Shown one piece after another: positions 56,194 through 58,063 of a stretch of 64,000 nt of DNA. Every line of letters begins with the position of its first letter. Position 1 is the stretch's first letter. The notes under the pieces were generated by a model, which had not been told where the DNA came from, ran no database searches, and saw nothing but the letters and a program-made list of their open reading frames with translations. Location of the stretch: contig NZ_CP029482.1 of NCBI RefSeq assembly GCF_003151075.1, forward strand, positions 1,054,001-1,118,000, read 5' to 3'. This DNA is from Pseudomonas sp. 31-12. Its GTDB lineage: Bacteria; Pseudomonadota; Gammaproteobacteria; Pseudomonadales; Pseudomonadaceae. The position numbers were made by a program, and so were the translations under genes.

Positions 56194-56221
56194 TCACCCC
56201 AGCCTGACCGTTTCGACGTTA

Positions 56222-56263
56222 TAAAAAATGCCCCGCAGTGAAAACTGCGGGGCATTTTTTTAT
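56222..56263 (+). terminator. Terminator of pnp
   Basis: TAAAAAATGCCCCGCAGT and ACTGCGGGGCATTTTTTTA pair around GAAA, with a T-run on both strands. Confidence 0.95.
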
Positions 56264-56327
56264 CTGCCATTAACCGAAACGGACTTGCGGTTGCGACTCG
56301 TGAAAGCTGTGCTAGGTTTAGCTCACC

Positions 56328-56400
56328 GCCCGTGTAGCTCAGTTGGTAGAGCAGCGCACTCGTAACGCGAAGGTCGCAGGTTCGATTCCTGTCTCGGGCA
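56328..56400 (+). tRNA. tRNA-Thr (anticodon CGT), no encoded CCA
   Basis: 73 bases that fold as a tRNA: acceptor GCCCGTG with CTCGGGC and discriminator A; D-arm GCTCAGTTGGTAGAGC; anticodon loop CTCGTAA; T-arm GCAGGTTCGATTCCTGT. It resembles E. coli tRNA-Thr(CGT). Two oddities: the sequence after the discriminator is AAAAT, not CCA, and there are weak pairs (U6-U67, A31-C39). CCA would have to be added by the CCA enzyme. A candidate promoter TTGCGA-N16-TAGGTT (56291-56318) lies just before it. Confidence 0.85.
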
Positions 56401-56411
56401 AAAATTATCTG

Positions 56412-57443
56412 TTACTTCACCTTTCTGCTTAAGTCTTCCACGGTGCGTTTGAGCTGATCCAGTTGATTGTCCTGATCGCTGACTTCCCGCTTAAGGCTGG
56501 ACAGGTCGCTGGAGCTCGAGCTGGAGTTCGAACCGGCGCTGCGCTTGAGGTCTTCCACTTGGCTGGCAAGCCGTTTCAGGTCGTTTTCCTGTTCGTTGAC
56601 AGTGCGCTTGAGGTCGTTCACTTCGCTGGAGCTGGAGCTTGAACTGGAGTTCGAACCGCTGCTGCGTTTCAGTTCGTCCATCTGACTGGCGAGCTTCTTC
56701 AGTCCGCTTTCCTGTTCACTTACCGTACGCTTGAGATCGCTCACTTCGCTGGAGCTAGAACTCGAGCTGGAACTCGAGCTGCTGCTGCGCTTGAGATCGT
56801 CCATCTGGCTGGCGAGTTTTTTCAGTCCGTTGTCCTGTTCGCTGACCGTGCGCTTGAGATCGCTGACTTCGCTGGAACTGGAGCTGGAATTCGAGGTGCT
56901 ATTGCGTTTGAGTTCGTCCACGGCCTTGGCGAGGTTTACCAAACCGGTGTTCTGATCACTGACCGTGCGTTTGAGGTCATTAACTTCGCCGGCGCTGGCG
57001 CTGGAACTCGAGCCGCTGCTGCGTTTGAGTTCGTCCATGGCCTTGGCGAGGTTTTTCAGCGCCGTTTCCTGGTCCCTGACGGTGCGCTTGAGTTTGTCCA
57101 CTTCGCTGGCAGTCGAGCTCGAACCGGACACCGTGTTCTTTTTCAACTCTTCGATGAGCCGCGCCTGTGCAGTGACGGTTTTCTTCAGCTCTTCCAGATC
57201 AGCCGTACTGGTTTTTACAACTCTTTGTAATGTTTCCACCTCCTCGATACTGACGTCGGATCTGACCATCACGTTTGTGCCGTAATAGTTGTGGAAAACG
57301 AGGAATTTATCGGAAGAATTAGCGCTGTCGGGTTTGTATTCCAGACTGGCTTGAGCGGTGCTGGGCAGTGCCAGGCTGCCGAGAAGAAGGGCAGCCATGC
57401 CGGTTGCAGACAGGATGGACGAAAGCTTGGAAAAATTGCGCAT
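56412..57443 (-). CDS. Exported coiled-coil repeat protein with serine linkers
   Basis: A protein of 343 residues from ATG 57443 (AAGGA 7 bases before it). A Sec signal (to about LPSTAQA, residue 32) precedes a short unique part (DKFLVFHNYYGTNVMVRSDV), then six repeats of 39 or 41 residues. Each has four exact heptads, such as SDLKRTVSEQDNGLKKLASQ, with V/L/M at a and L/Q at d, then a serine-rich linker of up to 13 serines. It ends in VEDLSRKVK with no anchor. I do not recognise the family; a periplasmic or secreted oligomeric rod is plausible. Confidence 0.85.
   Translation of the reverse strand: MRNFSKLSSILSATGMAALLLGSLALPSTAQASLEYKPDSANSSDKFLVFHNYYGTNVMVRSDVSIEEVETLQRVVKTSTADLEELKKTVTAQARLIEELKKNTVSGSSSTASEVDKLKRTVRDQETALKNLAKAMDELKRSSGSSSSASAGEVNDLKRTVSDQNTGLVNLAKAVDELKRNSTSNSSSSSSEVSDLKRTVSEQDNGLKKLASQMDDLKRSSSSSSSSSSSSSEVSDLKRTVSEQESGLKKLASQMDELKRSSGSNSSSSSSSSEVNDLKRTVNEQENDLKRLASQVEDLKRSAGSNSSSSSSDLSSLKREVSDQDNQLDQLKRTVEDLSRKVK
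56488..57205 (-). repeat. In-frame 117/123-base tandem repeats in the coiled-coil gene
   Basis: The codons for LKR-type starts recur at 56488, 56605, 56728, 56851, 56968 and 57085, that is at steps of 117, 123, 123, 117 and 117 bases. The serine parts use mixed AGC/TCG/TCC/AGT codons, while the heptad parts are conserved in protein more than in DNA. Confidence 0.88.
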
Positions 57444-57446
57444 CAC

Positions 57447-57757
57447 GGGTTCCTTGTGACGTGCCTAGATGGCACATCGCTATGACTTTACCTTTTGAAC
57501 GTTGTTCCCGGGTAGCGACTGGAAATTTTCAGAAAGTCCGATCAAAGGTTTTTTTGTAGATTTGATGTAAAAGTCCATATAAATCGTCGACCAAACGTCC
57601 TATATTCGAACGTTGCACACGTACCACTTTGCAGTTTTCAGATGATCCCCGAATGGTTCTGAAGGCCAGACAAACCGGGCTTCAAACGGTTTTTTGCGTC
57701 AGAGAGATCCTTGATGATCCAGATCCATCTTCCATTCCCCAGATCAGCGAGAACGCC
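57447..57757. promoter_or_regulatory. Divergent promoter region
   Basis: No gene is seen in these 311 bases. A sigma-70-like pair TTGTAG (57554-57559) and TATAAA (57578-57583) with an 18-base spacer points to the DUF6388-like gene, whose leader would then be about 165 bases. The coiled-coil gene on the other strand must also start here. Confidence 0.45.
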
Positions 57758-58063
57758 ATGACCGTTAAAGAATTGACTCAAGAAGCCAGACACGAAGAAG
57801 CGCTGAAAAAGTACCTGCTGGATTCGCCCCAGCTAGCCGAAGAGATCAAGGACCTGCCAGCCGACGATCAGAAAGACCAGATCCAGTGGGCATTCGAGGA
57901 TGAGGCGGAATCCCAGGGCTTGCAGCCGTGGGAGTTGACGCTCAAGTACACCTCGACCCCTGAAGAGTTCGAGGCTGCGCGCCTGGTGCTGCACAAGGAG
58001 GCGGCCGAGGTATTGGGCGTCGAGTGGGAAGAGTACTGCGAGATGAACAATCTGGTGGTGTGA
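57758..58063 (+). CDS. Small acidic DUF6388-like protein
   Basis: A protein of 101 residues from ATG 57758; an in-frame start at 57629 exists but the conserved part begins at TVKELTQEARHEEALKKYLL. It is acidic and helical, with ADDQKDQIQWAFEDEAESQGLQPWELTLKY and a C-terminal VEWEEYCEMNNL, which I match to a Pseudomonas family I know as DUF6388. No signal or membrane part. The ribosome site is weak. Function unknown; a terminator follows. Confidence 0.75.
   Translation: MTVKELTQEARHEEALKKYLLDSPQLAEEIKDLPADDQKDQIQWAFEDEAESQGLQPWELTLKYTSTPEEFEAARLVLHKEAAEVLGVEWEEYCEMNNLVV

Follow-up and report, generated by a model that had tools for sequence, protein, structure and literature searches.

The window analyzed here, a stretch of 64,000 nucleotides from Pseudomonas sp. 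31-12, harbors on its reverse strand a gene, here termed the rod gene, which is flanked by a tRNA gene and a divergently oriented open reading frame (ORF); its features are collected in Table 1. A previous, sequence-only reading had described its product as an exported, rod-like repeat protein, and the repeat layout that it observed is confirmed by the present analysis.

Table 1. The rod gene, its parts, its predicted upstream elements and the neighboring tRNA gene (positions are those of the window)
Feature	Position	Strand	Basis
tRNA-Thr(CGT), convergent neighbor outside the rod gene, 11 nt from its stop codon	56328..56400	+	tRNA call
Whole rod gene, 343 aa	56412..57443	-	ATG at 57443; TAA stop 56412-56414
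Predicted signal peptide, residues 1-32	57348..57443	-	Sequence reading; low-confidence helix in AlphaFold2 model
Head, residues 33-65, with predicted beta-hairpin 46-53/56-65	57249..57347	-	AlphaFold2
First coil, residues 66-104	57132..57248	-	AlphaFold2 helix 66-104
First, short Ser linker, residues 105-114	57102..57131	-	Repeat parsing
Block 1 and linker, residues 115-153 (39)	56985..57101	-	Repeat parsing
Block 2 and linker, residues 154-192 (39)	56868..56984	-	Repeat parsing
Block 3 and linker, residues 193-233 (41)	56745..56867	-	Repeat parsing
Block 4 and linker, residues 234-274 (41)	56622..56744	-	Repeat parsing
Block 5 and linker, residues 275-313 (39)	56505..56621	-	Repeat parsing
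Block 6, C-terminal coil, residues 314-343, ends LSRKVK	56415..56504	-	Repeat parsing; terminal Lys 72/73
Predicted leader stem-loop near mRNA start, inverted repeat GTGCC-N5-GGCAC	57461..57475	-	Minimum free energy structure
Predicted -10 box GTCATA, 17 nt after GGAAC	57481..57486	-	Pattern match; family conservation
Predicted -35 box GGAAC, AlgU/sigmaE type	57504..57508	-	Pattern match G000:C1:1111481-1111508; family conservation

Export by way of a signal peptide, as proposed earlier, is borne out as a prediction by a basic N-end, a hydrophobic core and an AQA-S site, all read from the sequence. The signal peptide and head of the earlier layout are both present, although the head is followed by a previously uncounted coil of approximately 39 residues before the repeats begin. 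Six blocks are indeed found, starting at residues 115, 154, 193, 234, 275 and 314 with periods of 39, 39, 41, 41 and 39 residues, as expected of the six 39- or 41-residue repeats described, but the sixth constitutes the C-terminus and carries no linker. A shorter linker (SGSSSTAS) precedes block 1, and five linkers lie between the blocks; these five are Ser rich and not pure Ser, with 7 to 13 rather than 8 to 13 serines each and with G, N, A or T interspersed in four of them. The array is visible in the DNA, where Tandem Repeats Finder placed it at 56508-57128 with a period of 123 and overlapping rows of 117 and 246. Within the six 28-residue blocks, V, L, I or M occupies 42 of the 48 a and d positions versus 1 of the 120 positions elsewhere, while the remaining six a/d cells are Gln, which each block carries at position d of its second heptad, in agreement with the four-heptad coils initially described. 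The protein lacks Cys, and Ser accounts for 23% of its mature part.

AlphaFold2 models were obtained as monomers for the window protein (53 sequences; mean pLDDT 71.0, pTM 0.24) and for a 183-residue relative (41 sequences; mean pLDDT 74.9, pTM 0.32), the pTM values of 0.24 to 0.32 being as for an extended chain. In both, the two strands of the head lead into the first helix, and a beta-hairpin head that continues into the first coil is thus predicted. Block pLDDT over residues 41 to 100 was 86 to 95 in the short model and 82 to 89 in the long one, in which the head scored 64 across residues 31 to 40 and 85 to 88 from residue 41 on. The later helices of the long model are separate and measure 31 to 33 residues, with all six linkers below a pLDDT of 50, as is one linker in the short model; regular coils on flexible linkers, another element of the original description, are therefore retained as a prediction.

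Oligomer state is a matter on which monomer models are silent; we infer that the rod would form a parallel oligomer. A trimer is a first guess, from the hairpin-on-coil layout and the polar layer at d, by analogy with trimeric fibers. T4 fibritin is a segmented coiled coil with a foldon, and the rod shares with it the short coiled-coil segments parted by loops and a small beta-hairpin domain; fibritin, however, is a phage protein without a signal peptide, and its hairpin domain is located at the other end. The stalks of trimeric autotransporters are exported coiled coils in which position d carries polar residues; the rod resembles them as a predicted exported coiled coil with a polar residue at the same position. 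Neither fibritin nor foldon was among the seven matches (E <= 0.1) of a sequence search against the PDB, which comprised designed helical proteins, IncA and a ciliary coiled-coil protein, and a Foldseek comparison with the PDB and BFVD, a weak test for a monomer model, returned nothing, fibritin included, at E <= 0.001.

The sequence-only reading knew of no named family with this layout, and in agreement with it family searches gave no specific match. Within the top 25 of 59 Pfam families, cut-offs were passed by SlyX and CC4_CEP85. The SlyX match (PF04102; 44.1 bits against a cut-off of 30) covers the last 30 residues of the rod and profile positions 19 to 48 of 67 only, and 20 of 41 shorter members match SlyX at 1e-5; membership was rejected, the match being read as general coiled-coil similarity. 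The rod differs from SlyX in being a predicted exported protein, and SlyX is not known to be exported. CC4_CEP85 was matched over profile positions 4 to 72 of 85 but is a eukaryotic coiled coil, and matches to SMC, CEP85, WXG100, FliJ and tape-measure proteins were rejected as composition effects. Source names carried by homologues (Smc, YukE, FtsL and CEP85-like) represent generic coiled-coil annotation, and literature searches of open-licence papers did not tie the family to any paper.

A match at 1e-8 was present in 74 of the 298 Pseudomonas genomes sampled, approximately a quarter, and a profile search at 1e-5 detected 78, of which one of the four additional genomes (G034; E 9.7e-7) probably contributes an unrelated coil lying in a frame of 529 aa. 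Named relatives are Pseudomonas migulae and P. mandelii, with 84% and 81% identity over the head region, respectively. Two protein searches returned 30 and 175 homologues (120 of the 175 listed); among the matches listed, every row that names an organism, many naming none, names Pseudomonas, with the exception of one fish protein (E 8e-10). A second copy within Pseudomonas sp. 31-12 was considered and dismissed, the sole other match (E 0.004) being a weak coiled-coil similarity. The set analyzed below comprises 73 members, of 154 to 347 residues, drawn from 71 of the 74 genomes together with loci L033 and L034; it includes one protein identical in two loci (L022 and L023). Three loci (L061, L063 and L067) were missed by the extraction script, one of them (G204) having an in-frame TGA in the match, and L032 was dropped as it lies on the same contig as L005.

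The rod gene adjoins nadC and the divergent ORF in 53 of the 73 loci, the pnp end also falling within the extracted sequence for 45 of these, and is located away from nadC in the other 20. The ten non-nadC loci whose neighbors were listed show varied surroundings with no common partner, such that context gave no clue to function.

The rod gene is a real gene under purifying selection, with dN/dS values of 0.03 to 0.26 in 16 pairwise comparisons. Where parts were scored apart, the head and first coil (residues 33 to 104) gave 0.21 to 0.56 versus 0.065 to 0.185 for the coils and linkers, the head part being the less constrained in all seven pairs. Such relaxation, coupled with a predicted signal peptide and a variable repeat number, would suit a secreted or surface fiber or adhesin, as the sequence-only reading had suggested. 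No membrane anchor, barrel domain or cell-wall signal, and no YadA-type anchor, was found in the top 25 of the 59 Pfam families, a range extending to E 0.046, however, nor do the ten non-nadC loci share a partner; the suggestion thus gained no positive support, and we regard a surface role as very unlikely.

Alignment of the 73 upstream regions revealed two conserved blocks, GGAAC and AGTCATA, separated by a less conserved spacer. The pattern GAAC-N18-TC[AG]TA is present upstream of 72 of the 73 genes (L075 being without it), where 200 mononucleotide shuffles gave 0.09 on average; as 19 of the 20 rod genes located away from pnp-nadC also carry it, the promoter-like element moves with the gene. 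A.TC-type -10 box lies 17 nt after GGAAC in 69 of 73 regions, the 17-nt spacing being tried ahead of 16 and 18; the -10 box reads GTCATA in 65 of these, and one (CTCGCG) is probably a chance match. Across 72 regions, information per column amounts to 1.3 to 1.9 bits in the boxes and at most 0.35 further upstream, save for one column (0.71), while a few spacer columns reach 0.5 to 0.9 bits. Genome-wide, bare GGAAC-N17-GTCATA has five matches in Pseudomonas sp. 31-12 versus one for the backwards control, and since the bare pattern is not rare, the weight lies on its conservation.

This arrangement resembles the layout of an AlgU/sigmaE promoter, for which GAACTT-N16/17-TCtgA is given as the consensus in PMC10651043 and, in near-identical form, in PMC3247240. 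In 72 of the 73 regions, GAAC and TC..A boxes are spaced as in AlgU promoters; the TT of the -35 consensus is found in none of the 69 scored, in which GGAAC is followed by A (57), C (11) or G (1). A known target of AlgU is rpoH, and in Pseudomonas sp. 31-12 that gene, whose product is named RpoH by TIGR02392 above its cut-off, is preceded by the same geometry in the form GGAACTT-N15-GTC. By eye, GAACTT-N16-TC was noted upstream of algU in this genome; a strict scan of the algU locus for GAAC-N18/19-TC..A found nothing, the -10 boxes of algU and rpoH being without the last A. GGAACTT-N15-GTC has five matches in the genome, two of which lie in front of plausible targets, namely, rpoH and a gene for a small lipoprotein, with no target identified for the other three. 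The latter gene, a 73-aa lipoprotein-like ORF (L093, from position 1501), represents another candidate AlgU target. The five matches compare with 62 for the backwards control, a difference which suggests either avoidance of the AlgU-type motif or a skewed base order in this genome.

In Pseudomonas sp. 31-12 the sigma factor model matches 15 sequences at E <= 0.001; a single one, RpoE/AlgU, exceeds the cut-off of the family, and the other 14 are weaker matches of ECF type. The absence of the consensus TT from the -35 box makes another ECF sigma factor possible, for example SigX, the motif of which is not precisely defined according to PMC7641640. Judged from its promoter-like element, the rod gene is probably induced by envelope damage, and AlgU, the sigmaE of Pseudomonas, would be the factor that transcribes it.

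Between the -10 box and a purine-rich ribosome site, the leader carries an inverted repeat. Of 72 leaders, 49 contain a perfect stem of at least 5 bp, versus 3.4 in shuffles, and 70 contain one of at least 4 bp, versus 12.4; placed where it fits best, the stem is closed by G-C in 57, G-T in 5, A-T in 4 and T-A in 1 of these leaders. The hairpin appears in the minimum structure of leader and gene start, a stretch whose overall stability does not exceed that of shuffles (z 0.50). The stem may function as a 5' stabilizing stem-loop or as a protein-binding site.

Repeat number was anticipated to vary between strains, and between species it varies from one to six blocks: across the 73 members, two blocks follow the head coil in 58, one in seven, three in two, five in two and six in four, the last being the window protein and three relatives (L065, scored as two, reads as three). 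The usual state is, accordingly, two blocks and not six, and because six members possess only one linker, several linkers are not essential. L007 has window-like ends yet two blocks, which most resemble the last two of the window (92 and 93% of bases); close relatives thus differ by gain or loss of inner blocks. Inner coils measure 28 residues in 87 of 89 cases, or 29 where the residue closing the linker is not small, a count which leaves out 23 one-residue "coils" representing breaks inside linkers. The C-terminal block, taken from its first a position, spans 30 residues in 64 members, 44 in six and 37 in one, the remaining two being a false start (L066, 23 residues) and a miss. Block periods are 39 (71 cases), 41 (8), 37 (4) and 43 (3), with 40, 46 and 7 once each; that of 7 is a false start of the regular expression, a rule which also missed first blocks (e.g., in L009). 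Coil lengths thus change by whole heptads and linkers mostly by two residues. Neighboring codons in Ser runs alternate between TCN and AGY in 641 of 752 pairs, whereas 1000 shuffles averaged 373 and never exceeded 423; the linker is, in effect, a degenerate six-base repeat (TCN-AGY hexamer), slippage of which would explain the two-residue steps.

These regularities bear on the possibility that the rod is a hydrophilic protectant, a LEA-like or hydrophilin-like filler of the periplasm under osmotic or drying stress whose repeats merely provide bulk. The Ser-rich mature protein of the window is also rich in K, E and D, with approximately 2% aromatic residues and no Trp, and LEA-1 and OsmC of Azotobacter are under positive AlgU control (PMC10651043). 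The strict a/d core and the change of coils by whole heptads, however, point to packed coils and not to disorder, and the head is predicted by AlphaFold2 to be ordered; a protectant is, on balance, unlikely.

The C-terminus raises a further alternative, namely, a strut resembling Lpp, in which an L,D-transpeptidase would attach the terminal lysine to peptidoglycan, the rod thereby standing on the cell wall and directing its hairpin head towards the outer membrane. A terminal Lys is conserved in 72 of the 73 members and a KVK end in 70, and the last block retains its 30-residue length or exceeds it by whole heptads. OprI of Pseudomonas sp. 31-12 ends in ASRK, comparable to LSRKVK of the rod, and the genome encodes five YkuD-family matches over the Pfam cut-off, one of which, beside OprI, is most like L,D-transpeptidase models though below NCBIfam cut-offs. 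The genes for OprI and this YkuD-domain protein are convergent and side by side (L089, 1273-2856). Attachment of E. coli Lpp by its C-terminal Lys, and a wider periplasm upon the addition of two or three heptads to it, are described in PMC5736177, and PMC4694138 describes covalent attachment of OprI as differing among P. aeruginosa strains. Like Lpp and OprI, the rod is a (predicted) exported helical coiled coil with a C-terminal Lys, the heptad-wise length changes that were engineered in Lpp being natural here; unlike them, it has no lipobox (71 of the 73 members, including the window protein, are without Cys), a predicted beta-hairpin head in place of the lipid, coils set on linkers, a length of 154 to 347 residues across the members and an AlgU-type element. 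Lys and Arg are, moreover, conserved inside the coils too, and conservation of the terminal Lys may consequently be mere coil chemistry. We consider such a strut improbable, and its most elaborate form, a lipid-free, modular counterpart of Braun's lipoprotein that would be induced by stress, capped by a trimerizing beta-hairpin, welded to peptidoglycan through lysine and reset in its reach by blocks and two-serine slippage, highly doubtful.

A structural role in the periplasm fits the evidence best. We tentatively propose, at a little below an even chance, that the rod is an exported, likely periplasmic, segmented coiled coil which is expressed from an AlgU/sigmaE-type promoter during envelope stress and acts as a structural spacer or scaffold. 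Envelope damage would lead AlgU to transcribe the rod gene, and the signal peptide would be removed after export. The head and the a/d layers, including the Gln layer at d, would then assemble a parallel oligomer in which the serine linkers serve as hinges, while block duplication and hexamer slippage would tune its length with coil register kept. The predicted beta-hairpin head, the AlgU/sigmaE-type element in 72 of 73 members and the terminal lysine at the same frequency are newly reported here.

The family represents a natural series of rods, with one to six blocks past the head coil and a common head, tail and promoter element. If the rod spans or spaces the periplasm, it would offer a length series with which to address how envelope spacing is set in stressed Pseudomonas, an issue approached in E. 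coli with engineered Lpp (PMC5736177). The rod gene is also a candidate addition to the AlgU regulon, unnamed in current annotation, and provides a clean case in which DNA slippage, in hexamer steps, can be separated from protein register, in whole heptads.

Several minor features of the surrounding DNA were also recorded. The divergent conserved ORF, of approximately 101 aa (57758-58063, plus strand) and adjacent to the rod gene in the 53 nadC loci, gave no NCBIfam match. A second conserved upstream block (approximately 57540-57600), reading TTTACATC ... AAAAA in the sense of the rod gene and found in many nadC-locus members, is perhaps the promoter of this ORF. A combined sigma-70 promoter and terminator scan of 56200-57800 found neither, nor did it list the hairpin noted by eye after pnp (approximately 56223-56261), which has the textbook terminator form GCCCCGCAGT-GAAA-ACTGCGGGGC between A and T runs. 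A tRNA scan of 45 of 83 loci identified tRNA-Thr(CGT) in 22, tRNA-Leu(TAA) in six distant members and none in 17. Of these 22 tRNA-Thr genes, the window copy among them, 19 measure 76 nt; the window copy was called at 73 nt, as in L056 (74 in L033), and is without an encoded CCA end, which seems to have been lost in the window lineage.
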